Source: Tubulanus polymorphus
Taxonomy: Eukaryota > Nemertea > Palaeonemertea > Tubulaniformes > Tubulanidae
Length of the DNA: 64,000 bases
Assembly: GCF_964204645.1 (NCBI RefSeq)
Contig: NC_134031.1
Location: 6,183,001-6,247,000, forward strand
Direction: 5' to 3'
Every line of letters starts with the position of its first letter. Position 1 is the stretch's first letter. The notes beneath the pieces were generated by a model, which saw nothing but the letters and a program-made list of their open reading frames with translations, made no database searches and had not been told where the DNA came from. Below, in pieces: positions 6,861 through 64,000 of the stretch. A program made the translations under genes and the position numbers.

Positions 6861-6869
6861 ACTCGAACC

Positions 6870-10070: not shown

Positions 10071-10488
10071 CAGGGTTTCCAGTGGTCCTTCCAAGTCCTT
10101 CTTTTGGAAAAAGTTTGGACACACATCATCATTGTCCTGCTTTTTTTTTTTAATTCTAAGTCCTTCCTTTCGGTGAAAAAGTCCTTCCAAATTTGATTTT
10201 TATTATTCTGTGGCGTGCAATTTTGTCGCGAATACGACTGTTAGTGTTTTTCATTACCTAGGCCTGTTAATTCAATTGTCAGTAAGATTGGACATTGAGG
10301 TAAATTTGCGAAAATTTTTCCTTGAATGCGTCCTCAATTTAGTGGAAAGTACTTCTTCCTCCAGTCAAAAAGTCCTTTCTTCTGTGTCTAGAATTGCCGA
10401 AAAAGAAGTACTGAAAAAGGACTTCCGAAAAAGAAGTACTGAAAAAGGACTTACACATTTCTTTTTATCCTGGCCCCTGGAAACCCTG
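10071..10488. mobile_element. MITE with CAGGGTTTCCAG ends (hAT-like)
   Basis: About 418 bp runs from CAGGGTTTCCAG to CTGGAAACCCTG, a perfect 12-bp terminal inverted repeat. The inside is built of AAGTCCTT and AAGGACTT repeats, including two adjacent copies of a 26-bp unit near 10396-10452. Confidence 0.5.
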
Positions 10489-11057
10489 AATAATGACAAC
10501 CTTTTTCGTGAATCTAGAAATTTTTGCTGGAGAGTATATTTGGCCATGTTATGACCCGATCTGCATATAAGCCTATGTATTGTGTATATAATTATGCTTG
10601 CGTGGGTCACAGTCAGTATGAATAATCCGTGGTTATTGATATAATAAGGTTATACATGTGACAGTGCATTATACCGATATAGATTAGACTGTCTGACTGA
10701 TAGGTTAGCCTATATTATATATATAATTTTATATCTATATTTTTGAACTCCATCGATCATTTTAGGTTTAGATGCTCGGTTATATCTCTTATCCAGGCGT
10801 TGATATATTTCCCCTTTTGTTTGTCTTTGGACTTCATATTTCTGTTATCCGCGCTGAAAACCGTTTTCGAGTTAGGGGCCCGCAGATAATAATTCAAGTG
10901 GTAAACGATTAGGTTATTTTAGTACTTCAAGCGCGCATGATTCGTGTGACTTATTGTCACGAAACGCACGGTGTCATTTCTCATGATAGCCGATTTTACA
11001 TGATTCATCATTCTCAATTTTTTTTGTCGTCAGAAAAGCCACCCTCCACTACGCAAG

Positions 11058-17000: not shown

Positions 17001-20000
17001 CGTGAGACAAGTACCCAGTCTTCCTCGTCGGACCCATCGTCCGCTACTTCAGCAACTATTTCCTCTGGCATATTAGTATTACCAACAGCGACTTTCTCCG
17101 AAGTAACATGCTCCGGGTTTGCTTCCTTTACTCGGAATGATTCCTCACTGTCACGCAAAGGAGTAGCCAAAGGTAATAACTTGTTCCTATGCAGAATCCT
17201 CCTACCCCCATCTTCAATTCTTTTTACCTCGTAAACAGGTACATCTCCAGTTACCTTGCTTTCTACGATATAAGGCACCGATTCCCAGCGGTCAGCTAAT
17301 TTATGTCGTTCCCTAAATCCTTCACGCTTGACCAACACCATATCACCGGGCGTTAATTCTGCACTCTTAGCTCTCCTGTCATATAACTCTTTCCGTCTAT
17401 CCCCTTGCCTAGACAAGTGATCTGCTGCCAAATTCCACGCCACTTCCAATTGATTTTCCATCTGCTTCACATACTCTGTTGTCGACGTCACACTTTCTTC
17501 ATTACCCCAACCAAATTTCTTATCAACTGACAGTCTGGGTCTTCTTCCGAACATAAGGTAGAATGGCTCAAAGCCTGTCGACTCGTGGGGCGTACAATTA
17601 TACGCATACACCAATGCATTAATATGCCTCCGCCAGTTTCTCTTTTCCTCGGGCGGCAAACTACCCAGTAGTCGAATCAACGTACCATTAAACCGTTCCA
17701 CAGCACCATTGCCCGCAGGGTGATACGGTGTAGTTCGGGTTTTCCTCATACCGGTCAACTCGCATAACTCCTTGATCACACGACTTTCGAAGGCAGGCCC
17801 CTGATCCGAATGAAGTTGAACAGGCGCTCCGAATTTCAGCACCACTTCGTTGAATAAACACTTAGCCACCGTTCTAGCCGTCTCATTTTTAGTCGGAATA
17901 GCCATCGCAAACTTAGTGAAATGATCGGTCATAACAAGCACCTTTTCGAAACCTTGACTCGGCTCCAATGTTAAAAAATCAATGCACAGTAACTCCATAG
18001 GGTACGATGTCTCAATGCTGACCAGCGGGGCAACTTGTGTAGGCGTCGAAGCCTTCAGCAGCACACAGCGCTTACAACTCTTCAAATATTCCTCGACATC
18101 GGATTTCATTCCGGGCCAATAACATCTTCGTCTCAATAACGCCAACGTTTTGTCACGGCCGGGATGCCCCAACCGATCGTGCAAACAGTCAAGCATCTCC
18201 GCCCTCTCCGAATAGGGCAACCAAACTTTCAGCTCTGACACTCTATTTTCAACAACTCTGCGGTACAAAACATCATCCAGAAGTTCCAGCGACTTAAAAA
18301 CCCGACAGATCCCGTACTCCCATGGCTTAGCTGGCCGGAATCTTGTCTTGGTCCTTAAACAAGAAACAACGCGTCGAATAGTCGGGTCTCGCTCCTGCAA
18401 TTTCCGCATGTCTACCTCTGCTACCCCTCCGGCTTTCGTCACAGGGACTGACGGACTTACGGTACAAATTGCTGCAAAGACGTCAGCAGTGATCCGATTT
18501 AATGGACTTCGACTCAGCGCGTCTGCATCCCGCATATTAGCGCCACTATGGTATTCGAGTTCCAAATCGTACACTGATAAAGCCTGTAGCCAGCGATGTC
18601 CCGTGGCATCCAGTTTCGCAGATTTCAACACATAAGACATGGGGTTCGAATCAGTATGGACACAATATTTGTTACCATACAAGTAATCGTGGAACTTTTC
18701 CGTCGCCGCCCATTTCAGAGCCAGGAACTCAAGCTTGTGCGCAGGATACTTCTTCTCTGAAGCATTCAATCCTCTACTTGCGTAAGCGATTACCTTCTTT
18801 ACTCCCTTTCCATCTGTTTGGTATAGGATCGCACCTAATCCATCATGAGCTGCATCCGTATGAAGCTCGAAGGGTCTATTAAAGTCTGCGAACCCTAAGA
18901 TGGGGCTTGACGTCAACATCTCCTTCAACCTCGTGAATGCGTTTTCTTCATCCTGTCCCCACTGTACCTCAATCCTCCGTTCCGCTGTCTTACGTTTCCC
19001 CTTAAGATTCGTGACTCCCGTTAACAATTTCGTTAACGGAGCAGCTACTCTGGCATAGTCCTTTATAAAGCGTCTATAATAGCCCGAAAACCCCAGGAAT
19101 TGTCGCACTTCAGTTACGGTTCTAGGGGCCGGCCAATCCTTCACAGCACTTAATTTCGCTGGATCGGGTTCAACTCCCTTTTCAGAGATCCTGTGCCCGA
19201 GGTAAACAACTGCTGACCGTAAAAACTCACATTTTGAGGGTTTCAACTTCAGTCCTGCAGCAGCAAGTCGATCCAACACATGCTCCAACCGCTCAACATG
19301 CTCCTCGAATGTGTCCGAAAAGATAAGTATGTCATCGATGAAAACCAGACATTCACGGAGGTTTAAATCCGCCAGAGTCCTTTCCATTAAGCGCTGGAAC
19401 GTTGACGGTGCATTTGTCAACCCGAAGGGCATCACGTTAAACTCCCAAAATCCATAACCCGGCCCGACATTGAAGGCAGTTTTCGGCTTATCCTCCTCTT
19501 TCACTTCGACTTGCCAATATCCCGCCTTCAGGTCGAGAGTGGTGAAATACTTGGCACCGGCAACACTTTCAACTAATTCATCCGCGCGGGGAAGAGTCTG
19601 CCGATCTTTCACGGTCCTCCGATTGAGGGTCCGATAATCCACGCAAAATCGAAGACCGCCATCCTTTTTCCGGACGAGAACTACCGGTGATGACCATGAA
19701 CTAAAAGATGGACGGATGATTCCTGTGGACGCCATCCTGTTAAGGTGATCCCTCACCTCGTTCACCATGGACGGAGGAACTCGTCGATACCTCTCCTTGA
19801 ACGGTACATTATCAGTCAAATTGATCTCATGTCTAATCGCGGAAGCACGTCCAGTATCTTCATCAGCGACCGAAAAAATTCCTTTATGCTTTCGCAGAAC
19901 GTCTTTCAACCGGAGAAGCTGCCCCGGAGTCGTCTCGCAACCTTCCCAGTTGAAAAAGTCAAAAAACTTATCATCTGCTCCTGACCCTATTGCACCACAC

Positions 20001-23000
20001 TGTCGCTGCAGAGGATTCGCACTATTCATCAGCTTCGGCTCCACTCGACGCACACCCTCAATGCGGAACGTTTAGTTTTCCAACAATAATGAGGGGTGGT
20101 AGGTTGTCATGCAATTCAAGTCATCATTTATTACACGTTACTTCCGTGTTGTTGAAAATCTCGTGAGTCCTGGACCAAACCCCATTGAACAATGTGATCT
20201 GTGTGCTGGCCACAAATGCACACAGATCACACTACACTACTACCCATTACACACTCCAGTACCCAGAGCTTTCATATATCCATCCAAATATTTAGAGTGT
20301 CTTTCTTCCTGGATGTACATGTATGAGTCCCATGAGAGTCCCATGCGTACCCAGGTTCAATGTGGAATAAACTCTTCTTCTTTAAGTAGGGTTTCTAAAA
20401 CGTGGGTTTTGCGGAAAACTCTTGCATTTAACCCATGGGGCCATGTTTCTAGCGTAGTGTAGATGCGTAATGCGGGTATAAGAAGCAAGTGCAGACGAGC
20501 CTGTAGTTGTTCATGCTTATTATTTGATGTATCGGTTAGACTGATATTAATCTCAGTACATGTATTTCAGAGTTGATAAGCAAAACTTACAGTTGTTGAT
20601 ATAACGGCTTATTCCGACATTTTCGAAGTTTTGACTGGAAATAAAAATTGTCGTTTCATATTCGTCTCTCTGGTGACGTAGTTTAGTCAAAACTTCGAAA
20701 CTGTAAGAATAAACTGTTAAATCATCAACTGTCGGTTTGCCCATATATCTTTAACCGTTTATGCACTATTCCCTACTTGTGTCACGCTTATTTCACGCTT
20801 TTCGGTGTCTTTTTTTAGTCGTTCTGTCGCTCGGTGTTAAAGAGTCGTCTCGGTTTAATAACATATTCACCGGCGTGAACCTGCTCGTCGTTCTGTACGT
20901 CATCGTTTGTGGATTATTCAAAGTCGACATCAAAAACTGGACGATACCCCCTGAAGATGTAAGTGAAATACCCTCTTACGCGCGGCCACTTTTATGGGAA
21001 ATCCACCTCGTGAATTATTGATATTATATGAAGCTGTAAAAGCAAACCTTGTAGAAATTTTCATTGTAATTCATTTCGTTGAATTTTTTGCCTTAGTCGT
21101 ATTTGCGATATCTTCGGTGTTTGAAAGGGGGAAAAATGAACCAGTCTTTGTAATATTGTATCAACCATTGTTTCCGTTGTAATTTCAGGTGCCTCCTAGT
21201 TCCGACCCGCGTTATGAAAACGGCGAAGGGGGATTTTTTCCGTTCGGCTTCAGCGGAATGATGTCCGGTGCTGCCACCTGTTTTTATGCATTTGTTGGCT
21301 TTGACGTTATTGCGACCACAGGTAGTGTATCGCCAACAAATTAATAGCCAGGAAAAGAATAATAATAATCATAATAATGATAAACATTTATAAAGCACCT
21401 GAAGAATGATTGAATGAAATTAGTTTATTTTCAACGAGTTAACTCTTGAGTTAGATCTTACAACTGTGGAACCGGGTCCTGTACTACTGCTGGTGGTTTT
21501 TCCATAGAATAGATCATAGTAGCCTATATTATAGAATCCTAACGCTTGCTTTTTGCAGGTGAAGAAGTTCAGAATCCGCAGAAAGCTATCCCTATCGGAA
21601 TAATCTTGTCGTTAACCGCGTGTTTCTTGGCGTATTTTGGATTGTCGGCCATCGTTACGTTGATGACGCCGTATTTTATGTTACACTCAAAAGCGCCGCT
21701 ACCTCTGGTGTTCGAAAGCGTTGGATGGGGTATAGCTAAATATATCATAGCTATTGGCGCTGTTTGCGGACTGTCGACCAGGTTTGTATAACTTAGAAGT
21801 CAATTCTATTTTCCTTAACAATCATTAGTGAATCAAAAATTGTGGTTTATATTGGTTGTTTTTCTCGGTATTAGCAAAGCAATACGCCCTATAATCTTAA
21901 GCGTAGTAGATTTTAGTGTATGTTGCGAAATACTTTTGCGCAATTAATAGGCTGAAGTTGTTTTCTTGAAGCATGGAAATTCCTCACGGTTGATATAAAT
22001 AGTATAAATACTACAAAAATATTTTCTATAGAAATGATTCGTTCATTTACTGGCATTCATTCATATTCGATTATGGCGGGAACTGCTGGTATATTGGAAT
22101 TGTGCCAGCGCATTGTTTTCTATCTATCATAGCGCAAAGGATATTCATTAAGACTGATCGGTTTTATTCAAAACGAAACATTCTTTTATCCTTGGGGACT
22201 GGTTTACTAGAAAAGATCAGTATAAAAATGTTATCGCGGCATTGAAAATGTGTATTTATTTGACATTTTGTTTTCATGTGACACTTGGCCTTGTACTATA
22301 GCTTGGTTTTGTTGACTGTACTGGATATGCACTCTTGTACTATTAAATTGAAATGCTGCCAACTTAAGCGTTATGTTAAAAAAAAATTCACTCATTCGTG
22401 TTTCAATTTGTTATGTCGCTCCGTTGTGGGGGGTTGATATTTTCTTTTTATTCTACCATGCTCTCCTGCCTCTTTTAACACTCAGTACATGTAAGATTGT
22501 TAAAAATCTTGGAGTGATTTCAAGTTTCTCGCTCTTCCAATACGGCTGCCAGAGCAGACATTTTGAATTTCTTGCTTCAGACACTTGAAATGATTTGTAG
22601 TTTTCTTGAAACTTGGTATTTATGATGGTCCATAGATGACATCTTCTAGTATTGAAAATCAAGTGTCTCGTTCTTTCGACTGCATACCTTTTAGCATTAC
22701 CGACGGAGGTGACGTACGTAGTGTTCTGCCACTTTCTATGTCAAATTCAATTTCAACATGATGGTATTGATAATACTAATAGTAAATACATTTCTATAGC
22801 GCCCTATGTACCTATAATCTCTTTTTTCCAAATTTCAGTTTGCTAGGTGCTATGTTTCCGCTACCTAGAGTTATCTATGCGATGGCGAGCGATGGACTGC
22901 TATTCAAGTTTTTAGCCAGAATCAACGAACGATTCAAAACGCCGCTCATCGCCACTTTCCTGTCTGGACTTTTAGCCGGTAAGACTCAGCGCTCAGTTAC

Positions 23001-33658: not shown

Positions 33659-49073
<15,415 letters not shown>

Positions 49074-49553
49074 TACGACGAACTGGTCGGAAATACCGTA
49101 GCTGGATTTCCAGGGACTGGAAATCTGTTCAGTAAAACTAATAATTTATTGCACCCAGTATGATGAAATCGGTGCATTTCAATGCGGGGGTGCATTATAG
49201 GTATCGCCTTGTCAGTCTGTCCGTCCGGTTTTACGTTTCCGGACGATAGCTTGTATCGTTCATAACGTATGTTGGATCTTCAAATTATAGTTGTTCGGTC
49301 AAACTCGCTTAAAGCCCAACTCGGGTCGACTAAGATCTGATCGGATCGTCGGATCATAAGCAGTGAAGTCTGCGATTTTTTAATCGGGAACCTTTTCGAC
49401 ATGAGTGTACTTACGACCACGGCGGATTGATCGCAGACCGATCGTAAGCCGAATTGTCAACTTTTTCAACTTGGGACAATGTAGGTCATCCAAGATGGCC
49501 GCCACATTCTATCACTTGTTTAGTATGTACTGTATATATTAATGATGATGTTT

Positions 49554-49559
49554 AATAAA
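49554..49559 (+). terminator. Polyadenylation signal of the SKI2 helicase gene
   Basis: AATAAA about 480 bases after the helicase stop codon (49071-49073), in an AT-rich stretch. Confidence 0.55.
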
Positions 49560-49634
49560 AAAAGCTATGGTATAGATTCGATCTCATGAAATTTTTGTTG
49601 GTGTTTTTTCGAGCTTTTTGCCCTAACCACTTAA

Positions 49635-49909
49635 CCCTTTCAGTGCTGACTAATAAATACCCTATAGTGCTGGGGATAATTTGAAAATTTTGAAAAATTC
49701 CACCCTAGTGTGTTGAATAACGGGATACCACTATAATGCGTCTACACCGCGGCGCGGTGTATCGTTAGTTACTAATATTTTACTATGTTTGACAGGCGCA
49801 GCCATTTTTCAAGAGAGATAATTACTAATTACATCAATACACCGCAGTGCTGTGTACTAGCAAAAGCTATCACCGATTTATACACCGCAGTGTAGACGCA
49901 CTGAAAGGG
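49635..49909 (+). mobile_element. piggyBac-like MITE, copy 10
   Basis: TTAA/CCCTTTCAGTGCTGACTA start and GACGCACTGAAAGGG/TTAA end, just downstream of the helicase 3' end. Confidence 0.75.
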
Positions 49910-50549
49910 TTAAGGCCGGTGAGCTATTATGTTTTATTTTTGTCCATCCGATTGTCCATAGACAGAATCCAGTTACTTCGGGAAGAATCCAATATCTCAA
50001 AACATATTTTAGATGCTTATTTTTAAGCTATTTTTGCTGATTAAGTGGTTCGTTTGTTTTAAGAAAATTTCTTTATTTTCTCGAATGCTGTAAAGCGTGG
50101 AGACTATTTTATGGTTCTACGCTACATGAATAGATTATTATTATTATCATTATCAATTCAGCGGAAAGCGAGTTCAGCCTTGATTGGAATTGATTGGCAT
50201 GATTCAATAAAACAGTGATAACATCTACACTTGAAAATTAACCATCAGATGCACCTTTGAACATTGTATCACATTGATGTTAAGGGCAACATTGTTATTA
50301 ATACAAGTTGAATAGACACGACCAACTCAAAAAGTCGACTTATTTACTCGAAAAGTCTAGTTACGAATTCGAAAAGTCAACTTAATATCTCGAAAAGTCA
50401 ACTGAAAAAGTCGGAAGTCGACTTACTAATTCGAAAAGTCGGTTTTTTCAACTCAAAATAAAGTGTGTTGTTAGCTGAATTGCTCTTCCGTACTATGACG
50501 AGATGATTTCTATGGTGGTTGATAAGGGCCACAGGTAATAATGTTTACG

Positions 50550-50733
50550 TGACCTCGATTATAGAAAAACGCAAAACGAAACTACGAAACTAAGCAAAAA
50601 CGATAACTGCATTTTTGCTTCCGCGCAAAAACGAAAAGATTCTTTTTTTGCTCCATGATTTTTCGTTTTTGCTCCATAATATTCGTTTTTGCGCCCTTGT
50701 TTTTTGTTTTGCATTTTTCTACAATCGAGGTCA
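50550..50733. mobile_element. MITE with TGACCTCGATT ends
   Basis: TGACCTCGATTATAGAAAAA start mirrors TTTTTCTACAATCGAGGTCA end, terminal inverted repeats of about 30 bp. Interior made of TCGTTTTTGCTCC and complementary runs. Confidence 0.55.
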
Positions 50734-51574
50734 TATAAAAAATAATTCATTAGAGCAAACACGAAAATATTACTTGAAAACGAAAGCAAACGAAAATATT
50801 ATGGAGCAAAAACAAATATTTTCCTTTTTCCTAGATGAAATTTCGTTTTTGTGCGAAAGTTCGCTCTTGCGTTTATGTAGTTCTTCTGGTGATCACGCGA
50901 AGCACGTTTATTCGCTTACGCTTATTGCTCTATCTCGACTAAATCCATTGTTGATCGGCATGCTTTTCAGAGTAATTTTTTGTGAACGATTTTCGTTTTT
51001 TTCATCTCGTCTGAAAAATTGAAATAAGACGTGCAAGCAGGATGCATATGAATTAAAACATTCATAGGGATGGGCCAGCCTAACTGCAGATTTTATATAT
51101 AGAACGACGACATTTTTATCTAAATAAAGAAAGCTATAAATCACTCGCCTATGCATCAATTTTAGACTATAAACCTAGGAGAGAATAAATTATTTAACTG
51201 TCATCCCTTCCCCCATTGCACCATGCACAGGGTCCAGTGCCTTAATTCTAAGTACAGCCAGTTGGCCAGCACTGGATCCTTCGTAACCGTATATAGTGCA
51301 CACTGACCTACTAACCTAATGTTCCACTAGATGGCGAACTAGTCAAACCTGACAGCCCAAACTGATTAAGCAGTAGAGCTGCCTTACAGTCGTTTAGATG
51401 CATAAAACACTGATAGGTGGCGCTAGCATTTGGAATTTGCGCTTTTGAAAAATGCGATTCAATGTTTTTCTTTTTAGTAATCCCACACGAAAGAGTTTTT
51501 TGGCAATCTACGAGGTATTGTTTTCGTTGAGAACGTGATAAATTTCATGACTTTCAGAGGTCAAAGATAAGCTT

Positions 51575-51786
51575 ACAGTCTTAAGTCCGTTATAACGCCA
51601 TCTTTTTTTAATGGCACTGCTCGCTTATAGCGCCAACATTTTTCAACGAACAATTTTTCTTAAGGAGTCCATGATCCAACTTCATTTCAATTAAAATTCC
51701 ATTTTTCATAACACCAAATTTATTTCAACGCCACGTTTTTCATTGGCGTCCCAATATTGGTGGCATTATAACGGACTATAACTGTA
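51575..51786. mobile_element. MITE with TACAGT ... ACTGTA ends (pogo/Tigger-like)
   Basis: TACAGTCTTAAGTCCGTTAT start and ATAACGGACTATAACTGTA end, inverted repeats of about 25 bp flanked by TA. Confidence 0.5.
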
Positions 51787-51844
51787 TTGGTAAGTTCCAC
51801 TGGTATATACCGGGGTAATGTAAATTAACGGTAGAAATTCTTAC

Positions 51845-53407
51845 CCACTGGTTTGCTCTTCAAATCATCGATTTCTTTTTCGCAAATGCTTGTAACTATA
51901 TCAATTAAGCAAACAGAACTTTTTACATTTTTTTGCGAATGGCAATCATTAAGATTGAGTAACCATGTCCAAACTTTAGCGTAAGGCATCGGGTATGGAT
52001 AGTATTGGCCCATCTGTTCCATCTGAGGCAAGATGACGGCTTGCTTATATTTGGAAAATATTGGGAATTTGTCTCAGAAATTATGGTGAAACTTACTTTG
52101 CTTTGTAATGATGACGAGGCTTTCATCAGCTGGAAGTGAAAAGTGAAAAGAAACGTAAGTATTCTGTTCAGTCTCCATTTATTGAACTACGTTGGAACCT
52201 CGTTGATACGAATCTTGTGGGCAAAAATGGAATTGTCGTAATAAACGGGTTTCGAATTATCCAAATCTTAATACAAATATCTTAACCAGATAATGCTGGT
52301 AAGAATCGTAATAACGAGGTTCTGTATCGATTCAATATCAAAATGGTACCTCCGATATTTTCTTCGTCGATCTGTTTAATAAGAGCCTCTACAAAAGACA
52401 CATTTCCAGTAAGTAAGTAAACTAATAGAGAATGAAAACGACATAAATAAATCTAGACCGATGTAATCGAGTTGGCAAATCTATCAGCGTATAGTGTTCT
52501 GCTTTTTTTCAAAATTCTTCTTTATCGAAATAGTGTCACAATAGATATAGAAATATTCTGCAAAATCTAAAGATTACAAATATCATATTCATTCTCAAAT
52601 CAAATTCATTTTTTTAGTCTCCAAATTTAGTTTTATTCCAAATTCTATTAATATCTTTATGCAATATGGCAGACACGCCTTTGTTATGGGTTTAGTGTCA
52701 GGATGTTTACATGCCATTCGTCTCTAAAAATCTAAAGATTAACCAAGCCTGACTTTGAAGACAATCAATAATTAAATCCCTCGCTCCCTGTTTGTTTAGT
52801 GTTGTTTACCGAGGTCAGCTGTCAGATTTGTGAGTCTGGTGGCTAATCAGCCAATGATATGTGCCTCCGACCCCGAGCTTGTTTGGGGTGGAGCTTGAGT
52901 CAAGGATGTCCAGCTCAGGCCTGGCTTGGTCATTCCTGCTCATGCTCTCGTTGAATAAAGATATCAACTACATATTCATTGGTTTGTCTTCAATCAAATT
53001 TCAGGTAAGCCATACTCAGATTCTGCTATATTTTTAGACTCTTTAGGCCTTTTCTTAATAATAATTATTCTAGGATTTATATTAGATTTTAAATTCTAAT
53101 CTCAGACTTTCAATTAGCTTTTAGCTAGTTTCCATTAGATTTGAGAAACAATTATTTTCACACAATATCCTTCCCGATCTTCTGTCAAAGCTAGCTATCT
53201 AAATTAGCTTAATCTTTATTAGTGTAATCTATATAAAATAACAAGATTATCTACTATCTAGAATAATGAATATAGATATATAGAAATTTATAGAATTAAT
53301 TGAAAAGGGAAATATAAATGATTAAAGCGCATATCTATAGTACCAATCTAAACACTAGTGTCATGTAAATATTTATAATCGTACTAGAATAATAATAATA
53401 ATAATAA

Positions 53408-53450
<43 letters not shown>

Positions 53451-56400
53451 CATTATTATTATCATTATTATTATTATTGGTTATCTTCATTGCTGAAATA
53501 CGAAACTGTTATTATAATTATTTCATAATCATATTTTCTAATTCTTAATTTTCATATGATAATTAATTATTGCATAATCACATTTCTTACTTAATACTTC
53601 TTGAAAACTTGTCATTCCTGCTCATGCTCTCGTTGAATAAAGATATCAACTACATATTCATTGGTTTGTCTTCAATCAAATTTCAGGATCGCTATAACGT
53701 AGTTTATTGTGGTAATATACACAACACTACAAGCGCATTAATCCATGACCAGTTTCACAGTTGTGAGTAAAGATTTGACTCGGAGTTAACTAATCGAAAA
53801 TTAACTAATTTTAACTCGGAGTTAACTCTAACTGATGACTGTGGAACTGGATCCACCACGTTAAGGCTTAGTATCTAATTGCCGAGAAAGATTTACCGGT
53901 ACAGCGGCACCTCGTTATAACGAACTCGGATACAACGATTCATCGGATATAACAAATATAGAATCTCATCCCAAGTAAGAAAACTTAATCGATTTCATAC
54001 TGGATATAACGACGAACTATCCGTTATAACGAACTATCGGTTATAACGAACAGATTTTCTGATCTCGTGAAGTTCGTTGTAACGAGGAAGCATTTTGTGA
54101 AAGTTTTGTAAGTTCATACACCTCTCTCAGACACATTTAAGTCATAGATCTTAGGAAGAGAGTTCAAATATCCGAATAACCATAGAAGCGATAACATTAA
54201 AAACCTCATTTTCTAATGAGTAAATACAGTTTATTAACACGAACGTTTTCGGGATCATATCCCCTCATCAGGTGAAATACAAGTGAATCAAATGATTAAA
54301 CTACAGGTTTATATACAACATAAGTTACAAAATTACAAGTGCTAAATTCTAAGCTAATTACAAACCAAGTATTTAATTACAAACTAATTATTTGAATACA
54401 TTTAGGATAAAGGATGAGCCGTTTTGAAATAATTGTTGATTTAAAGAGGGTCGTTGCGCTTTAATAAACAGGGCCTCCCTAATTTTACAGTCGAGATCAG
54501 ATGAACCTTTGTCCATAATTTTGAATTTGTTGTTACTGAATTCCTGATCACAAGTGTGACAAATTGCGAGATGTTGTCCAATCGCAGAAGTCTTTGATCT
54601 GTGTTCCTTAATCCTGATGGCCAAATGTCGTTTAGTTTTCCCATATGATCAGGCTACATTCAAAGAATTACTTAAAATCGCAACTTCGGGTTTGTTTATG
54701 TACAATGATCGTATTTTCAAGCAAGTTGATGGGGTCATCATGGGCAGCCCCTTAGGCCCAACCTTAGCGAACTTTTGTCTTGCCCATTTTGAAAACTTGC
54801 TCCTCTCCAAAACTAATTACAAACCGACATTATACCTGAGATACGTGGACGATATTTTCGGCATATTTCGAAATGTATCCAGTTATAGACTATTTTTTGA
54901 AGAATTGAATCGCCTCCATTCTAACCTTAAATTCACTTTTGAACTAGGTCCTAATCTATTACCTTTTCTCGATACCGAAATACAAATTCCGTTAGAAACC
55001 GGTAGTGACTTTATATCTCGAGTGTACAGGAAAGCTTCCAACACAGGCCTACTTTTGAACTTCAACGCCATGTGTCCGTATAAATGGAAAATAGGACTCA
55101 TCAATACCATGCTTTTTCGTGCCTACAATATTTGCAGTGATTGGACCATCTTTTCAGAAGAAATCAATTTCTTGAAAAATCTGTTTAAATCTAATGCGTT
55201 TCCTATTCATGTCATCGATCAATGTATTAATAGATTTTTGAAATCAAAACAGAACTCAGAACCTCAACCGAAACCTGTTGAAGATGGAATTGATCTATTC
55301 ATTTCATTACCGTATATTGGTAACCCGTCAATCCTATTTGCCCGAAAATTAAAATATCTATTTAAAAGGAATTTTGAAATCAACTTGAAATGTGCATTCA
55401 CTACGACCAAAATTAAGAATTTTTTCTCTTTGAAATGTGCTACCCCTAAATCGCTGAAGGCTAAAGTCATATATAAATTTAATTGTTTATGTGATATAAA
55501 CACTTCCTATATTGGGAAAACTAAACGACATTTGGCCATCAGGATTAAGGAACACAGATCAAAGACTTCTGCGATTGGACAACATCTCGCAATTTGTCAC
55601 ACTTGTGATCAGGAATTCAGTAACAACAAATTCAAAATTCTAGACAAAGGTTCATCTGATCTCGACTGTAAAATTAGGGAGGCCCTGTTTATTAAAGCGC
55701 AACGACCCTCTTTAAATCAACAATTATTTCAAAACGGCTCATCCTTTATCCTAAATGTATTCAAATAATTAGTTTGTAATTAAATACTTGGTTTGTAATT
55801 AGCTTAGAATTTAGCACTTGTAATTTTGTAACTTATGTTGTATATAAACCTGTAGTTTAATCATTTGATTCACTTGTATTTCACCTGATGAGGGGATATG
55901 ATCCCGAAAACGTTCGTGTTAATAAACTGTATTTACTCATTAGAAAATGAGGTTTTTAATGTTATCGCTTCTATGGTTATTCGGACATTTAAGTCATATT
56001 CATTACAAATCCCGTCGTTTAAACATGTAGTGAACGAAACCGCAATACGAGGTTTCACGATTAAATACTTTTGTTTAGGACATCTATAATCTTACCAGTG
56101 TGACTTTGAAGCCTCTGTCGGATATATGAACCTGAAAGACGTGAAAAACCACTAAACGTAATTATTTGTATATATTTTTACATAGCATATACCATCGATC
56201 CAAAGGTTTTGATTAGGTAATTCAGAGACCTGACTAAGACTACTATTTGAGAGTGGTTTCTATTCTTTAAATAGCTCAACTACTCCCGAAAATCTCGAAA
56301 TGCTCTCAAAATCTGAATAATTTTGAGTGCATTTTTAATTAAACTATTTTTTTAATCTCAGAATACTCTCGTTTTGTTTGTGAAAACTATTAAGAATAGA

Positions 56401-59400
56401 GCTATATCAGGAAATCTGGTCAGGGTATCATAAGAACTGGTATAAGCATTGAGCAATTGAAATACATTTATCATGTATGAATTATTATTACTACTTTAAA
56501 TATGTCTATCATACGATGAATATCGCTAAGTGCAGCAAAGAGGTAATAACAGGGTTCTCATGTGATCGAACATCCAGCGGTAGGTAATGATATACTCACT
56601 TGCATTCTCAGCAGAAAAAGTAAAGTTTTTATCTGAAACCGAATTCGTAATAAAGATTTATTCGTGTTAGATATACGGTACACATTTTGACACCTGGATT
56701 AAACGAGTCGATGACAAATGCCATTGCCCTTGCCGTCACGAGCAGAAACGGGCGCAAAAATTATCGCGTTACAATCGAAGGTTAATTTTTGGCAATTTTC
56801 ATTTGGATTTACATACCACAGTTCTGATGCACGTAACCGAAAAGCAAAGTCCTCATTCGAGCTGAAAATACATGCAGAAGTACCATATTCACGGGGTTTT
56901 ATTGTTCTGGACGCTTTGTTTCATAAATCTGGCTAATTGTTAGAATGCCACGTCCAGATTGGCTAGAAATGTTGTCTTTTAAAAGTCACTTTAACCTACG
57001 AAAATATCATGTTTTTTAATGTTGTTTTAGATATGGTTTGAAAGAGTGAGAGCCGAGAAACATAGATATTTCTGTATATAGGAATTTCGTTTAAATTGCT
57101 ATAAAAGGTCTTTGGGTCTTTAAGGTCATCATGATATTTCTATAGAAAACAGCTAGAGTTTCATATATATTTTGTACAGATCCTGTATATCTATCTGCTT
57201 TCACGTTCATACCTTTATTAATTTCGATGGCTTCGCCAATGGCATTCCGAGCATGTTCCTCTAAAAAGAGAATAAAAAACAACATTTAAAACGCAATTCC
57301 TAATATGCATTTATGCTGATGACTTGGAAATAGTAGAGCAATCGAACAGTTCGATCTTACTAGCCGACCGACCGGCTGGGGTCCCGGATACATAATACAC
57401 ACCCTGACCGGTCACCAGTCACCACACCTGACTGGTCACCAGTCACCACAGCTTAATGGGTCACCATACTGACCAGACAAACTTAGAAGCTCGGGCGGTC
57501 ACCGGAACTTGGTGGTCTAGTGGTTAGATGACAAAGCTGGCTAGGGTTAGGGTTAAGGATATCCCCTGTTTGAATCAAGGTTTAGGTTCATGTTTTGATG
57601 CTATTTTGAACTGTTTTTCCTGTATAGGACTGATAGACATTTTTCAACCTGTTCATATGTTATACTATTATATATTTCATCATTTACAATGAAGTTTTGT
57701 ACAAGGAATATTCATATTCAAATCAGTTACATTTATATTTCACACAATAGTAAACTTCCACAAATCTGGGTTAATTGTGTTGAATTCGTGAGAATTGATT
57801 TTCTATTCGCTGTTAACAATAAATCTTACAAATAAATTGTAGCTGTCGCAAAGTCTTAATAACATCTTAACATTAAAGTTAAATCAATTTTCCAATACGT
57901 GTGAAAACACGGTCAGTTCCAGATCATTCCTCAACCAGTTAATAGACTCTCAGTCAGTCAGTACCCACTCAGACAGTCGGTACACTCTCTTGAGCCTCAT
58001 GAATTCCACTCAGATTCAAATTGGTGGAACTTATAACAGTTACATCGTTCTCATGTCTGTGGTAAACAGGTCTGGAATCCACCGCACTGTGTCACTGGTC
58101 ATTCTGCCTATCTTGTTCCTGCTTGGAGCGTTTGGAAATTCAGCTACTTTCCTGATAATGATAAGTCGCAGATTCCGCAGTTTATCCTACGCGAACTATC
58201 TTATCGGTCTTTCAGTGTGTGATTCCATATACTGTACAAATTCTACACTGATGCCGGTTTTACAGTTCGTTCTCTTGCATTTAAAAACAGGTCCTATATT
58301 CATGATGAATTCACTGATCAGTTGTCAAATCTATGAAATTGTATTCGCGGTTGCAGTCATCAACAGTTCGTGGTTTATAGTAGCAATATCTCTAGAACGT
58401 GCGGCAGTTGTGCTCTTCCCGTTCACATCTCGTTTGATATGTACACCGAGATTCGCTAGATTTGCTATATTGATAATTACTGCAGTGAATGTACTGGTTC
58501 TATATCTCACACCCGGTTTGTCGATGCTTTTCACCAACCAGTTCATAGGATGTTACTATAAATTATTTGACCAAATAAGATTTTTCCTCATAGTTGTGAT
58601 CCACGTGTACCTTTTACCGTTAATTTTTATCATTATATCAAATTCTGTTATAATAATTCAGTTATTCAGAGGTTCAAAAATGGTTTCGTCTGATCAGAAA
58701 ACTACGAAATCAAAACGTACAACAATAATGCTTGTAACAGTTTCACTCGCATTTGCAATGTTTACAGTTCCAAACACTATTACTGCAATATTACCAGTCT
58801 CGCCGGAGCAAAGAGATTTTCTTTATGACATTTCCACACAATTCTTAATGTGTAACTATGTGGTAAATTTCTACATATATCTCTTATTGGGGCGAGAAAT
58901 TCGTGAATATTTTTGTACGAAAATCCGCTGTAGAAATTTAATCAAATAACCATTGATTTCGAGTATGATGAAACATACAATTTTTTTTATTCAGTAAAAC
59001 GTAGACACAAATAGTACTTTACAAATTAACTGATGCTATTTTATTTCTATACATATATTTAGTAGCTTCATCAGGTAAATGAGTCACTGTATGAGTAAGC
59101 TATAAAGTGAAGTCTTTTACGTTTTACTGAGGTTGCGACACTTATTCTAGTTTTATATTGTATGGTTCCTGACCAGACGTCTTATTTTTAACTTCATAAA
59201 GCACACTAACGACAACTAATCATCATTAGTTGGTTAACTGTATGAGTTTACAACCAGTAGGAGTCAATCTCGTTTTCTGTATAGCTGTATTATGGGGCTT
59301 TCATGACATATATTATTTGGCTTTCGTGAATTATATCAATGGGCTTTCAGGAAATCTTATTGAGCTTCAGTTATCAGCGGTTAAACTAATACAACAAGTA

Positions 59401-62400
59401 ATATACAGAAGCTGGAGTTCATGGCCTGTGTTGCTATTATTACGAGACAACCTGCGTTGATGCTTGCGTCATACATAAACAATAAATATGTAATGTAAAT
59501 AAACATGTCTGGATGTGACGTATGTATCCGCGTAGGGAAACCTTAATATGGCGCGGCTGAGCTCTGGCGAGTGCAAAAGGTATTTTTAGAATATTATGAA
59601 GAGTGTGGAATATAAACACTCCATACATGGGGCGGTAGAATGTTGTGACGCATGAATGCGTCGCAATCCGTGCATGCCAAACCATATGCGGTGTTTCCTC
59701 AAGCGTTACTAAACAGTAAAACGATATAAAAAGGGAGGGTTTTTTAGTTAAGTTAGGTTTTAGAGTGAAAGGAGTCAAAGTTTAGCTTTGGGAAGAGATT
59801 GTAGTCAGACGAGAAGGAAAAGCAAATGCTTTATTTAGAGATAGAATGTATACATCCGGCTAAGAGAAAATAATGATGGATAGATAGACTCAGTTGTTCG
59901 AGTTGTTTTAGAGGATTACAAGTGGGTGAGATCTTTCCCAACATCACAAGTAAGAAGATTTACACTTAAAACCTGATACTGAAGAAAAGACACAACCACA
60001 TCGATGGTGGACATTTAGCAACCATAGCAGCTGTATCAAATTGGTATTCGATTTACGGAGACACTAATAAACGCGACGCTATAGTTCGTGCTTATTTGAT
60101 GGAGCAATGAAGAGCCTTTGTCTCGGGAGTGAATGACCGACAGGTCATTTGGAGTCATGTTGTTGGAGTCATGGAGTCATATAATCTAAACAAGTGTGCC
60201 TCGTCGGAGGAGAGAAATACTCAGAACGCACAATTCCAGATGGCCACCTCGAGTAGGGATGATGACATCTTGCAAGATGGTGAAAAACCCGAAGCACACT
60301 GTAATGGATGTACAAAATGCAGTAAGATTGAAAATCTATTACAGGCCGTATTGCAGAAAGTTAGTGTCCTGCCTGAGGTAAATGATAAAGTTGACAAAAT
60401 GTTGGTCTCCCGAAACGCCGTAGACTATCTATTTAAATCTTGCACGTTAAAGAAAATGATAGGGGTTAACTATTTCATGATTTTGAAAGGGTTAGGGTAG
60501 GGGGCGTGAGGAGGAGCTAGTAGCAATTCTGACTTACCTATATACGATTTGGTGTCTGAAGAATAAAGAAACGAATCTACATTCATGAATCTACATTCGG
60601 TCAATTTATTAACGGAAACATGTTAAATACGATGAATGAAAAAATTCTCACATTTTAAATGATGGATTTTCCGTGCCTTTAACAATTCTGAAATACATAT
60701 ACATATATTTATATATAAAACTTAATTTATTAGAATGATTTACTAGGTAGACACGAATGGGCTAGGGCATGCAAGCAGATAGGACGAAAAACAATGGCCC
60801 AGAAGCTATCTTACCGGTTGCACATCCATTCACAACCCAGATGGCCTCTTTAAGCATATTTTCCATGCGCGAAGTCAATGTTGATTGGCCAGTCACAGAT
60901 TCGCCCGCCTTTTCTGAAAGAAATAACTTCGAATGATTGTGACTGCATTTATCTATATCGATTCGGCCATCCTTCCGAATGCATACGTATCTCTTTAATG
61001 ACGACCTGCAGGGCCATGCCCCTATGTAGGGACTCCCAACACCAAAAAGCATGATTGCCTATTTTTGGAGTTTGGTCGTTACGTTGAAGATGAAACTACC
61101 CGACTGCTTGATGAGGCGATTTACTTAAAGGATAGCAATCTGGATACAAGGGCATGCTTTTTGTGACCTGATCCACCGAGTACGTATTCTGTCTGATGTA
61201 TGGTGGCTGATGAAGGCCATTGAAAAATCAAGGCCTGCGCAAGCCGATTTTTTTTTATGCGCAAAAAACGCGAGGAAACAATTATTCTGTATCGGTTTTC
61301 TTTCGCCAAGAAAAAAAAACTTTTTTGTAAATTTGCTTGTTTGGAACGCAATTTTAGGTTGACAGCTATCTGTTGAATTGTTACCGAAGTAAGAAGTCAC
61401 AGATGACCCCATTTTGACGGACTGATGCGTTTGTCAAAACGTCAGTCTACGCTGTGCGTTGATAATAGATGTACTGTAAATTTTCTAAAATATTTGCCCC
61501 ATGGCTATATCTTAAGTGAGTAAACTCTGACTGAGAAATTTTTTACAGTGTTATACATTTACAAATCTGTGCACTGTGTAAGGTTTCTGAGAATGGATTT
61601 TGCACGCTGTTGTAAATTGTACTTGATTCCGTTTCTTACAACTGCTATCATAAATATGACATTACGAATTTTCTCGGGTAATCATTCTTTAGTGTCGATG
61701 TTAGGGAGTTCTGCGAATCATGAGGAATTTTACTGAAATGCTGGTTGCTAGACCTTACAAGAGTTACATCGTCGTCATGTCTTTGGTGAACAAATCTGGT
61801 AGCTACCGCGCGCTATCAATGGCAATATTAGTCATTCTATTCATGCTTGGTACCTTCGGAAATTTATCTACATTTATGATTATGATAAGTCGCAGATTCC
61901 GAAGTTTATCTTATGCCAACTATCTCATTGTTCTGTCTCTCAGCGATCTTATGTACTCCGTCAATTTTACGCTAGTGCCTTCGTTACAGTTGGTTCTCTT
62001 GCATCTGAACACCGGGCCAGTGTTCATGATCAATTCACTGATCAGTTGTCGAATGTATGAAATCTTGATGGGACTCGCTTCTTCTAATAGTTCCTGGTTG
62101 GTAGTGGCAATATCTCTAGAACGTGCGGCAGTTGTGCTCTTCCCGTTCACGTCTCGTTTGATATGTACGCCGAGATTTACGCGATGCGCAATCGTCCTTA
62201 TATTCCTAATGAACGCGTTGATAATCGGAATCTACCCAACATTAACGATGCATTATTCTAAGCAATACCTTTTTTGTTATTTTGAAATATTTCATCAATT
62301 TATATACTTCATGATCATCGCCGTCCATGTTTATCTGCTACCTTTATCGCTTATCGTCGTATGCAATGTCGTAATAATATTTAAGTTATTCAGAGGTTCA

Positions 62401-62842
62401 AAGATGGTTTCGTCCGATCAGAAAACTACAAAATCAAGACGCACTACAATAATGCTTGTAACAGTTTCGCTCTCATTTACAGCGCTTACACTACCGTCCT
62501 CTATTATTGTATTATTACCATTAGCCACGGAACAAAAAGAATTTGTTTTAGATTTACTCACTCAGTTCATTTTATGCAACTACTCAATCAATTTCTACAT
62601 ATATCTTTTACTGGGACGAGAAATTCGTGAACATTTTTGTGCAAAAATTCGCTGTAGAAATCAGGTCAATTAACGATTGATTTCGTTATTCGTATTACTG
62701 TTCAACCGTACTGGTATTCATGGTGTAGATTCAGTTCGCCTAAAGTGATTGAAAACCCAATTGTCAAAGTCGTAGAAATAGTATTTTCCATAAACTTTCG
62801 AAACGTACTTACTCAGTTCCATCTCGGCCTGCCTTGTCAATT
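51845..62842 (-). CDS. Candidate micro-exon gene: ten symmetric phase-1 exons, partial
   Basis: Exons in transcript order: 62842-62813 (30 nt), 60913-60815 (99), 60555-60538 (18), 57260-57213 (48), 56861-56817 (45), 56632-56600 (33), 56131-56096 (36), 52388-52350 (39), 52129-52097 (33), 51895-51845 (51). Each follows a pyrimidine tract plus CAG/TAG and ends at GTAAGT, GTAAGA, GTATGT, GTGAGT or a weaker GT. All lengths are multiples of three; all start with two bases completing a codon and end with one, and no stop arises on joining (144 codons). The product is hydrophilic and probably helical (e.g. TSRMENMLKEAIWVVNG, EHARNAIGEAIEINK, CEKEIDDLKSKPV). I do not recognise the family. First and last exons are not found. 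Two GPCR genes lie antisense in its introns and a Penelope-like element in another. The 18-, 33- and 39-nt exons are the least certain. Confidence 0.5.
52188..52326. mobile_element. MITE with AACCTCGTTGATACGA ends
   Basis: TACGTTGGAACCTCGTTGAT start and TAATAACGAGGTTCTGTA end. Fits between two micro-exons (52129 and 52350) without touching either. Confidence 0.45.
52929..53005 (+). repeat. 77-bp direct repeat, left copy
   Basis: Identical to 53611-53687. Contains GTTGAATAAAGATATC and ends AATCAAATTTCAGG. An AATAAA followed by a CA end is typical of the 3' part of an LTR; I see no pol nearby. Confidence 0.6.
53391..53480. repeat. (AAT)n/(ATT)n microsatellite, self-complementary
   Basis: A run of AAT units turns into ATT units, so the two halves can pair. 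Confidence 0.85.
53611..53687 (+). repeat. 77-bp direct repeat, right copy
   Basis: Exact copy of 52929-53005. The flanking sequences differ on both sides. Confidence 0.6.
53746..53856. mobile_element. Short MITE with CCAGTTTCACAGTTGTGAGT ends
   Basis: CCAGTTTCACAGTTGTGAG start against GATGACTGTGGAACTGG end; AACTCGGAGTTAAC interior shared with 5455-5550 and 21430-21475. Confidence 0.4.
53900..54088. mobile_element. MITE with ACCTCGTTATAACGAAC ends (pogo/Tigger-like)
   Basis: TACAGCGGCACCTCGTTATA start; right side AAGTTCGTTGTAACGAGG. Related in style to 52188-52326. Right terminus degraded. Confidence 0.45.
54171..54643 (-). repeat. Left inverted arm of the Penelope-like element
   Basis: Reverse complement of 55513-55985 with only scattered substitutions. 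It includes an antisense copy of the last 78 codons of the ORF (54624-54388), with ATG for CTA at one codon (Met for Leu). Confidence 0.85.
54228..54284 (-). ncRNA. Hammerhead ribozyme in the left arm
   Basis: Minus-strand copy of the right-arm motif: CUGAUGA at 54271-54265, stem II of GGGG/UCCC type, GAAA, AACGUUC, then GUG that can pair with CAC before the core. Predicted cleavage between 54241 and 54240. Confidence 0.65.
54644..55768 (+). pseudogene. Penelope-like reverse transcriptase with GIY-YIG-like endonuclease end, 5'-truncated
   Basis: The open frame runs from the inverted-arm junction to a TAA at 55766. It enters inside the RT domain and keeps VIMGSPLGPTLANFCLAHFE and the catalytic YVDD (about 54845), with LPFLDTEI further on. 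The fingers region before this is missing. The C-terminal part has CDINTSYIGKTKRHLAIRIKEH, resembling a GIY-YIG nuclease core, with a CxxC-like pair (CHTC) behind it. The ATG at 54617 lies in the left arm and is accidental. No internal stop. RT of this class uses a chromosomal 3' end to copy RNA; this copy cannot make a complete enzyme. Confidence 0.85.
55513..55985 (+). repeat. Right inverted arm of the Penelope-like element
   Basis: Covers the end of the ORF, the 3' untranslated part and the hammerhead; mirrors 54171-54643. Confidence 0.85.
55872..55928 (+). ncRNA. Hammerhead ribozyme in the right arm
   Basis: CUGAUGA at 55885-55891, stem II GGGG AUAUGA UCCC, GAAA at 55906-55909, minimal stem III AACGUU, C17 at 55915, then GUG pairing with CAC (55882-55884) as stem I. 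Predicted cleavage after 55915. Core bases are all intact. Confidence 0.7.
57508..57588 (+). pseudogene. tRNA-Glu-like pseudogene or SINE head
   Basis: CTTGGTGGTCTAGTGGTTAG matches the A-box half of tRNA-Glu. A weak B-box-like TTTGAATCAAGG follows after a GGGTTA-rich insertion. It cannot fold as a whole tRNA. Confidence 0.4.
57990..58949 (+). CDS. Rhodopsin-like (class A) GPCR, intronless, copy 1
   Basis: 319 residues with seven hydrophobic segments. TM1 carries GN (49-50), TM2 has D78, TM3 ends SLERAAV (ERA in place of DRY, 136-138), and C112 and C188 can form the usual extracellular disulfide. TM5 P210 lies in HVYLLPL and TM6 P261 in FTVP. TM7 has NFYIY (293-297) in place of NPxxY, followed by helix 8 GREIREYF. 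Short N-terminus with a possible N-glycosylation site (NST at 5-7); no signal peptide. The pattern resembles invertebrate peptide receptors (FMRFamide-receptor-like); ligand unknown. It is about 60 percent identical by eye to the ORF at 61720 and lies antisense within an intron of the micro-exon gene. Confidence 0.85.
   Translation: MSLMNSTQIQIGGTYNSYIVLMSVVNRSGIHRTVSLVILPILFLLGAFGNSATFLIMISRRFRSLSYANYLIGLSVCDSIYCTNSTLMPVLQFVLLHLKTGPIFMMNSLISCQIYEIVFAVAVINSSWFIVAISLERAAVVLFPFTSRLICTPRFARFAILIITAVNVLVLYLTPGLSMLFTNQFIGCYYKLFDQIRFFLIVVIHVYLLPLIFIIISNSVIIIQLFRGSKMVSSDQKTTKSKRTTIMLVTVSLAFAMFTVPNTITAILPVSPEQRDFLYDISTQFLMCNYVVNFYIYLLLGREIREYFCTKIRCRNLIK
58950..60128. other. Spacer after GPCR copy 1
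   Basis: No coding sequence I trust. Short plus- and minus-strand ORFs (59230, 59440) lack recognisable features. Confidence 0.4.
60129..60500 (+). CDS. Hypothetical 123-residue ORF
   Basis: Starts MNDRQVIWSHVVGVMES and includes CNGCTKCSKIENLLQ, a Cys cluster followed by a short possible coiled coil. The first half is charged and Asn/Ser-rich. I do not recognise it. It could be the start of a retroelement ORF1 or chance; the stop at 60500 is followed by no polyadenylation signal nearby. Confidence 0.25.
   Translation: MNDRQVIWSHVVGVMESYNLNKCASSEERNTQNAQFQMATSSRDDDILQDGEKPEAHCNGCTKCSKIENLLQAVLQKVSVLPEVNDKVDKMLVSRNAVDYLFKSCTLKKMIGVNYFMILKGLG
61720..62673 (+). CDS. Rhodopsin-like (class A) GPCR, intronless, copy 2
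   Basis: 317 residues, close paralogue of the ORF at 57990 in the same orientation. Shared blocks include MISRRFRSLSYANYLI, ISLERAAVVLFPFTSRLICT and SKMVSSDQKTTKS. TM2 is LSLSD (D76), TM3 ERA (134-136), C110 and C186 are placed for the disulfide, and TM7 has NFYIY. Divergence is concentrated in TM4, the second extracellular loop and TM5, as expected if ligand preference changed. It is also nested antisense in an intron of the micro-exon gene. The ATG at 61720 is preferred because it aligns with the short N-terminus of copy 1. Confidence 0.85.
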   Translation: MRNFTEMLVARPYKSYIVVMSLVNKSGSYRALSMAILVILFMLGTFGNLSTFMIMISRRFRSLSYANYLIVLSLSDLMYSVNFTLVPSLQLVLLHLNTGPVFMINSLISCRMYEILMGLASSNSSWLVVAISLERAAVVLFPFTSRLICTPRFTRCAIVLIFLMNALIIGIYPTLTMHYSKQYLFCYFEIFHQFIYFMIIAVHVYLLPLSLIVVCNVVIIFKLFRGSKMVSSDQKTTKSRRTTIMLVTVSLSFTALTLPSSIIVLLPLATEQKEFVLDLLTQFILCNYSINFYIYLLLGREIREHFCAKIRCRNQVN

Positions 62843-62989
62843 CTGAAACGGAGGAACACCGAATGTAAATAAATATGAACGAAAAGAAGGTTAAGAATGA
62901 GGTGGGTATACATCTACCTAACCAGTGAACATATAAAAAATGAATGAGCGAAACAACTATTTCGTCACAAGTACAGACATATTTCAGAG

Positions 62990-63069
62990 AGTTTAAGTGT
63001 TATTCTAGACTTCAAAGTAAGCAGCAGTGAGTTTAAGTGTTATTGTAGACTTCAAAGTAAGCAGCAGTG
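62990..63069. repeat. Tandem duplication of about 39 bp
   Basis: GAGTTTAAGTGTTATTCTAG...GCAGCAGT occurs twice in a row with one base difference. Confidence 0.7.
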
Positions 63070-63514
63070 ATATGTTGAATTCTATAAAACATTCTAGATA
63101 GAATTTTGAATGGTCTTGGCATGCTGCCATGTCATGCCATGCCAGGTTACTAATCCCTTTCTAAAGTTGGACTAAAAGCAACGTGAAATTTAAACTGCAG
63201 TTCGGTTACCGCAGTATAAGTCTGCAGGTTTGTTTCTTAACTATGGAAGCTTATTTGAGAACAATAAAATATTCGAAGAATAGATATTATAGCTGCACAG
63301 CAGCGATAACAGGTCTTCTGCACAGCCTTGTGCGCAGTGTTGTTCTTGTCTGGATATTGTGTCGACCACTATCGCGTTTATCGACACAGCCGCACCAAGC
63401 TATTGAAAATTAAGGGAATTTTGAACGTGAACACGGTTTTATAAAAGGAAGGTCTACAAACAGTCAATTAGGCCTATTCGAAACGATGGATAACTGGACC
63501 AGATGCTTTAACTA

Positions 63515-63775
63515 TAGTCTCTATGGATTTCGAAAAAAAAAATTGATAAGGTACATCAGAGATAACAAGCAACTAGGAAACGGTCGAGTATCAATGATGT
63601 GATGCTTAAATGGCTCAGCAGTTTTATCCGATCGAAAACAGATGGTCAAAATCAACGGAACTGTCTCATTTCGGAAATAACTAGTGGAGTAACGCAAGGT
63701 AGTGCCCCAAGTCGTCTTCACTGGACTGATAAATGATATGCCAGATGGAATCTCCATAAAATTGGAAGAATAATG
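63515..63775 (+). pseudogene. Non-LTR reverse transcriptase remnant
   Basis: With several frameshifts and stops one can read DF..K, FDKVHQR-like, WLSSFIR, VKINGTVS, ITSGVTQGS and VFTGLINDMPDGI. This order is that of the RT domain of jockey/RTE/CR1-type retrotransposons (SGVPQGS and FINDLP motifs). Strongly decayed; the catalytic YADD region is not seen. Confidence 0.6.
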
Positions 63776-64000
63776 ATGAATTTCTCGGCTTAGGCTGCAG
63801 ATTGATAACCACAGTATGATACGCGTGTTTTGCTAAGGGCTGGCTTACGAATATTTATTTACGAATATTTATTTACACTCCAACCATTTCCATGGTATAT
63901 GGAGGAAAACAGTATTTACAATAATTACATAAACAGTAATAAAAGCTACAAAACTTAATTAACTGGTCTCACACTTATGTACAAAATATACTATTTACTA
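63776..64000. other. Window edge, no gene seen
   Basis: AT-rich. Contains a short tandem duplication of ACGAATATTTATTT near 63847. Nothing coding. Confidence 0.4.

Follow-up and report, generated by a model that had tools for sequence, protein, structure and literature searches.

The DNA stretch studied here, 64,000 nucleotides of contig NC_134031.1 (positions 6,183,001 to 6,247,000; hereafter the window), very probably holds on its minus strand part of a genuine protein-coding gene running from 70057 to 50967. Coordinates above 64000 continue the window numbering into the flank of the same contig, and contig positions equal 6183000 plus the coordinate. The gene spans about 19 kb (C7 6253057-6233967) and starts outside the window; the analysed locus was the minus strand from 50900 to 70100, which comprises part of the window and 6.1 kb of flank. 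In the reading that we favour, and in which we have good confidence, this is a micro-exon gene (MEG) encoding a protein of about 350 residues with an anchored, charged and helix-rich body, the exons of which could be skipped in frame.

A sequence-only reading of the window had proposed a minus-strand gene of ten symmetric phase-1 micro-exons, six of them listed by position and four by length only. The six listed segments are indeed preceded by AG and followed by GT on that strand and have lengths divisible by three. The other four correspond to 60538-60555, 56817-56861, 56600-56632 and 56096-56131, which are likewise bounded by AG and GT and are multiples of three. Joined, the ten segments give 144 codons in phase 1 without a stop. 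The extent of the gene had been underestimated, as 11 upstream exons lie outside the window, 60652-60687 is a possible additional exon, and 50967-51010 is the last exon, carrying the stop codon. The model now consists of about 23 exons (scores are summed splice scores unless stated otherwise):

70027-70057, minus strand: exon 1, start exon, plausible ATG at 70057
69701-69814, minus strand: exon 2, hydrophobic membrane segment, contains an internal ATG
69557-69583, minus strand: exon 3 of the phase-1 model
69332-69388, minus strand: exon 4 of the phase-1 model
68747-68806, minus strand: exon 5 of the phase-1 model
68278-68331, minus strand: exon 6 of the phase-1 model
68157-68192, minus strand: exon 7; the exon-chain finder favours the shorter alternative 68175-68192
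66904-66921, minus strand: exon 8 of the phase-1 model
66431-66484, minus strand: exon 9 of the phase-1 model
65860-65922, minus strand: exon 10 of the phase-1 model
65108-65143, minus strand: exon 11, weak acceptor
62813-62842, minus strand: exon 12, 30 nt, one of the six listed segments, 13.5 bits, symmetric and open in phase 1
60815-60913, minus strand: exon 13, 99 nt, one of the six, 18.0 bits
60652-60687, minus strand: possible exon 14, 36 nt, absent from the sequence-only reading, 12.7 bits, symmetric and open in phase 1
60538-60555, minus strand: exon 15, 18 nt, one of the four given by length, 22.1 bits, one of the best-scoring splice pairs in the locus
57213-57260, minus strand: exon 16, 48 nt, one of the six, 17.8 bits
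56817-56861, minus strand: exon 17, 45 nt, one of the four, 15.0 bits
56600-56632, minus strand: exon 18, 33 nt, one of the four, less sure, 13.7 bits
56096-56131, minus strand: exon 19, 36 nt, one of the four, 19.5 bits
52350-52388, minus strand: exon 20, 39 nt, one of the six, weak splice sites (acceptor 5.0, donor 4.1 bits)
52097-52129, minus strand: exon 21, 33 nt, one of the six, 19.3 bits
51845-51895, minus strand: exon 22, 51 nt, one of the six, weak acceptor (3.7 bits), donor 8.0 bits
50967-51010, minus strand: exon 23, terminal, 44 nt, stop codon, acceptor scoring 9.4 bits; parses with penalties from 11 to 14 terminate the chain here

All 21 internal exons are symmetric (phase 1-1), but they were picked for symmetry. 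They are 18-114 nt long with a median of 39 nt; 19 are shorter than 70 nt, and the longest consecutive series of such exons counts 10. Across the internal exons the three forward frames contain 20, 25 and 0 stops, the frame with none being the phase-1 frame, whose openness was a selection criterion. The introns measure 85-3707 nt and are mostly shorter towards the gene ends than in mid-gene. Joining the model yields 353 residues. Among the 21 internal exons (from 69814 to 51845, minus strand), 12 have a length divisible by nine, which may be chance.

The phase pattern was examined with a blind selection in which segments were chosen by splice score only (summed score of at least 13 bits, 12-120 nt, non-overlapping), with no further rule on length or frame. 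As controls, twenty 10-kb stretches placed at round positions were taken from ten contigs and used on both strands. The selection returned 23 segments on the minus strand of the locus. Fourteen were symmetric and every one of these was open in phase 1, as compared to 6/14 in phase 0 and 6/14 in phase 2. The controls gave 370 segments, 135 of them symmetric and 57 both symmetric and open in phase 1. The difference between 14/23 and 57/370 corresponds to a one-sided Fisher probability of 2.6e-6, and at stricter cuts of at least 14, 15, 16 and 17 bits the values were 1e-4, 1.3e-5, 7.4e-6 and 2.1e-5, respectively. The plus strand of this region yielded 10 segments, of which two were symmetric and none was open in phase 1. 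The excess was found both in the flank, which had not been seen in the sequence-only reading (7/12 symmetric and open in phase 1, p 0.001), and inside the window (7/11, p 0.0005), where the seven segments all belong to the ten proposed earlier (four of the six, three of the four). The claim of a gene of symmetric phase-1 micro-exons is thus supported by a selection in which symmetry and phase played no part.

An exon-chain finder was run with splice scores, stops and a per-exon penalty as input, the phase being either free or restricted to phase 1. With free phase and a penalty of 14 it traced 15 exons, beginning with the ATG at 70057 and closing with the stop codon at 50967, and 14/14 introns were in phase 1. 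Restricted to phase 1 at penalty 13, the two 10-kb halves of the locus scored 47.8 and 33.8; by comparison, none of the 40 control strands exceeded 17.8, and 100 shuffles per half peaked at 9.6 and 11.7. The longest run of symmetric exons in the same phase was 13, as opposed to at most four in controls and shuffles at this penalty. Confidence is very high for the upstream half of the gene and high for the downstream half as part of the whole, but lower for the latter taken alone. Exon 22 (51845-51895) was taken by the chain finder at penalty 11 only, the possible exon 60652-60687 falls under the 13-bit blind cut, and the blind set prefers a longer asymmetric segment, 56600-56693, over exon 18, with which it has the donor in common.

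As a translation start, the ATG within exon 2 is as plausible as that at 70057. When given more upstream sequence the chain finder proposed a distant first exon, 75941-75962, which we disbelieve; it would lie past the end of a neighboring DBH-like gene. This piece was dropped from the parses along with 75098-75118 and 73196-73207, also upstream, and the 9-nt pieces 67439-67447 and 59964-59972. Eight low-score segments of the phase-1 chains were excluded since their joined make-up did not resemble that of a protein (helix p 0.91, charge p 0.99), and single members of this set may be real:

69276-69293, 68972-68989, 65236-65274, 64884-64955, 60232-60372, 57503-57565, 55311-55400 and 51316-51348, minus strand: excluded low-score segments

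Further evidence came from the amino-acid make-up, a property unused in the choice of exons. It was compared with that of 2000 joins of pseudo-exons, all likewise symmetric and without a stop in phase 1. The body of the predicted protein (309 residues) contains 31.4% charged residues as compared to 19.5 ± 2.4% in the pseudo-exon joins, and its helix propensity is 1.057 as compared to 0.987 ± 0.016; 0/2000 joins were as high in make-up. The flank exons alone also differed (charge p 0.001, helix p 0.017), as did the six listed segments (helix 0/2000, charge p 0.018). The four segments given by length had been accorded less weight in the sequence-only reading, and rightly so, as they do not stand out from pseudo-exons in either measure (helix p 0.54, charge p 0.66). 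Nonetheless, they include two of the top splice scores of the locus, 22.1 bits for 60538-60555 and 19.5 bits for 56096-56131.

The predicted protein has a short, basic N-terminus ahead of a hydrophobic segment of about 23 residues (approximately residues 17-39) with a 19-residue mean hydropathy of 2.49, after which RWRRK follows. A signal-peptide exon had been expected beyond 62842, and a hydrophobic exon is indeed present at 69701-69814, but it resembles a membrane anchor more than a cleavable signal. Because the hydrophobic stretch is long for a cleaved signal peptide, we read the segment as a likely membrane anchor of the signal-anchor type, and this makes the suggestion of a secreted product doubtful. 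Both flanks of the segment are basic, so that they do not indicate the side of the membrane on which the body lies. The charged, helix-rich body is poor in cysteine (three residues) and proline (1.6%), and there are four N-glycosylation motifs in the whole model, which is not a telling number.

Exons as pairs of splice sites, a common phase, an open frame and a protein-like make-up can be read directly from the DNA. The hydrophobic segment would target the chain to the secretory membrane and anchor it there, while the body would form a helical stalk on one side of that membrane. Since each internal exon starts and ends at the same codon position, skipping without a frameshift is possible. The exons with weak sites, namely 52350-52388, 51845-51895, 60652-60687 and perhaps 62813-62842, could thus be either included or skipped, and one gene could then produce stalks of varied length and surface. 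We consider the chances that exon skipping is in regular use to be evenly balanced.

Searches for relatives with the model in Pfam, NCBIfam and PDB gave nothing above cut-off, with 0 PDB matches at E ≤ 10. A tblastn search of the 268 Mb genome returned 10 matches, all within the locus, and hence no paralogue at a sensitivity that is limited by the short exons; the peptide of exon 13 (60815-60913) matched nowhere else in the genome. Matches below the cut-off to CdiI_2 in Pfam (E 0.0026; score 18.9 bits, cut-off 26.7), to DivIVA with a shorter model version (E 0.095) and to two NCBIfam entries (E 0.054 and 0.11) were taken as chance. An origin by exon duplication was also rejected, the best exon-exon peptide score of 22 being equal to the shuffle median of 22. 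A search of 49000-64000 with Rfam gave nothing. Haemerythrin (PF01814; positive controls in 7 of 14 genomes) and the annelid linker family (PF16915; no control gave a signal) had no match in this genome, a result that leaves the phylum unfixed.

Two known families resemble the model in layout. Triadin, junctin and ASPH have a short N-terminus, one membrane segment and a long charged part encoded in many small exons, and the model shares the short N-terminus, the single membrane segment and the charged part in small exons. The body is of mixed make-up, unlike their lysine/glutamate repeats, and PF05279 matched neither the model nor the locus, with one sub-threshold match on C11. Prominins combine many small exons with helical parts and five membrane segments; the model is similar in the first two respects but has one membrane segment, and PF05478 matched at other loci (C4, C2 and weakly on C7 at 0.74 Mb) and not in the model. 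In spite of the similar layout, it is improbable that the gene is a diverged member of either family, given that no Pfam, NCBIfam or PDB match rose above cut-off.

The closest parallel in exon architecture is with the MEGs of schistosomes and tapeworms. By the operational definition in PMC7653826 the model qualifies, in silico only, as a MEG: for the minimum of seven exons named there it has 23, and the unconstrained penalty-14 parse has 15. Under the same definition 19/23 exons count (19/21 internal, all shorter than 70 nt), with a longest run of 10; these exons were chosen as symmetric, whereas in the blind set 14/23 segments are symmetric. That paper, on the Hymenolepis genome, counts 109 MEGs in S. 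mansoni, 35 in E. multilocularis and 52 in H. microstoma (PMC7653826). As described in PMC10526429, S. mansoni MEGs have exons of 6-81 nt, mostly 15 nt, a signal peptide and longer introns in mid-gene, and schistosome MEGs generate protein variants through alternative splicing of central exons. The model resembles MEGs in several respects: very small exons whose lengths are multiples of three follow one another, separated by longer introns; the N-terminus is hydrophobic; no domain was detected; and most introns near the gene ends are shorter than those of mid-gene (PMC10526429).

Differences are also evident. The model exons are longer than those reported for S. mansoni, with a median of 39 nt, two exons of 99 and 114 nt and none of 15 nt, and the model has no evident cleavable signal peptide and no paralogue was found, unlike schistosome MEGs. 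In MEG-8/9 the final exon is assigned phase 2 (PMC5825161), whereas the introns of the model are all in phase 1. A membrane anchor is predicted in the same paper for S. japonicum MEGs 11, 14 and 32.1, all of which have a signal peptide, and the MEG-26 group is described as forming amphipathic helices (PMC5825161). Since membrane-anchored MEGs are thus on record, the putative anchor of the model is less of a novelty. For micro-exon genes outside flatworms, literature listings and the opening parts of abstracts show flatworms and rice (PMC6600660) and no other animals, although mentions deeper in the texts could escape such a survey.

Several observations weigh against the favoured reading. The gene is known in silico only, and no relative in another species was found. 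The splice matrices held hand-set frequencies for metazoans in general and were untrained on the species. Codon usage gave no support: the phase-1 frame scored -0.169 bits per codon as compared to -0.119 in another frame, and the fraction of pseudo-exon sets scoring as high depended on which of two training sets was used (0.035 or 0.75), so that codon usage was dropped as proof of coding because it is uninformative. The free-phase score of the locus is not unusual, as control L017+ reaches 51.9, and phase-1-only chains on the plus strand between 5 and 20 kb score 22.2 and 25.4, above the 21.9 of the minus strand between 50 and 60 kb. Exon 20 (52350-52388) is not picked by the chain finder and was retained for the evidence of the sequence-only reading and for its phase. 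Finally, 9/23 blind segments are asymmetric, four of them without any splice site in common with the chain:

69276-69388, 68147-68192, 65108-65205, 56600-56693 and 50920-51010, minus strand: asymmetric blind segments with one splice site in common with the chain
67028-67140, 65954-66047, 57428-57516 and 53897-53999, minus strand: asymmetric blind segments with no splice site of the chain

That strong-looking splice pairs fall into one phase by coincidence would agree with the unsupportive codon usage and the lack of relatives, but we regard it as very improbable, because the blind selection, the chain scores, the shuffles, the unseen flank and the make-up all set the locus apart from the controls. 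More serious is the case of the downstream half, which may belong to the gene with a different exon set, some of the present exons being decoys and the phase-1 pattern incomplete. At penalties 11-13 the free-phase parses use other phases from 60.4 to 52 kb, and in the downstream half at penalty 13 a mixed route scores 34.4, slightly above the 33.8 of the phase-1 route, with a longest run of only two. The claim that the gene has only symmetric phase-1 exons therefore holds strongly for the upstream half, whereas downstream of 60.4 kb mixed-phase routes are nearly equal; the four segments given by length, without protein-like make-up, point the same way. On the other hand, 7/11 blind segments in the window are symmetric and open in phase 1, including three of these four, and the penalty-14 free parse of the whole locus is entirely in phase 1. 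We therefore hold a differing downstream exon set to be possible but clearly less than an even prospect.

A somewhat stronger contender, though still short of even, is that the gene is real and its exons are constitutively joined, the common phase being a trace of gene growth without skipping variants. Most exons have strong splice sites, and an excess of 1-1 exons in extracellular proteins, both membrane-bound and secreted, is well established. Cassette exons often have weak splice sites, and the weak sites in 52350-52388, 51845-51895 and 65108-65143 argue against constitutive joining, as does the symmetry of 21/21 internal exons of the model, though they were chosen so. The micro-exon gene with skippable exons remains our preferred explanation. 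Its boldest extension, a MEG-like variation device in an animal that is perhaps not a parasitic flatworm, appears unlikely as it stands; it would comprise a membrane-anchored surface or luminal protein with all-internal phase-1 micro-exons and combinatorial helical stalks, independent of the schistosome MEGs. This extension depends on the phylum and on skipping, so that the anchored MEGs of S. japonicum leave its odds as they were.

The gene fits between a DBH-like gene on the same strand, which by eye ends at about 74.26 kb, and a SKI2/MTR4-like helicase gene on the other strand, the latter being one of the training sets used here. Other features of the window are:

37600-49073, plus strand: SKI2/MTR4-like RNA helicase gene, rough parse ending at about 49.07 kb, with domain matches and longer exons
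61720-62673 and 57990-58949, plus strand: intronless rhodopsin-like G protein-coupled receptor genes (7tm_1), antisense and nested in introns of the micro-exon gene
54166-55990 (frame 54617-55768), the strand opposite to the micro-exon gene: reverse transcriptase/GIY-YIG element, Penelope-like by eye, inside an intron of the micro-exon gene
16502-20071, minus strand: retroelement frame of 1190 uninterrupted codons with reverse transcriptase, RNase H and integrase domains
3351-5351, plus strand: open frame of 667 codons with C2H2 zinc fingers

A 59-residue query from one of the receptor genes gave at least 150 matches genome-wide (150 of 737 candidates scored), which indicates a large receptor expansion. 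The arms of the reverse transcriptase/GIY-YIG element are inverted, 478 nt long (54166-54643 and 55513-55990) and 99% complementary. On the plus strand, 5001-20000 yields six exons for each of the fairly high-scoring phase-1-only chains (22.2 and 25.4) and may harbour a further gene in which several exons are symmetric and in phase 1.

A gene with this structure can readily escape notice. Homology searches fail on exons this small, and in the present case nothing but the splice sites and their common phase gave the gene away. The blind test used here, in which segments are selected by splice score and then scored for symmetry and phase against control stretches, could be applied to any animal genome to gauge how frequent such genes are. 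Should transcripts confirm the gene, and should the animal prove to be something other than a parasitic flatworm, it would follow that micro-exon architecture has either emerged or been retained outside the worms for which such genes have been counted.

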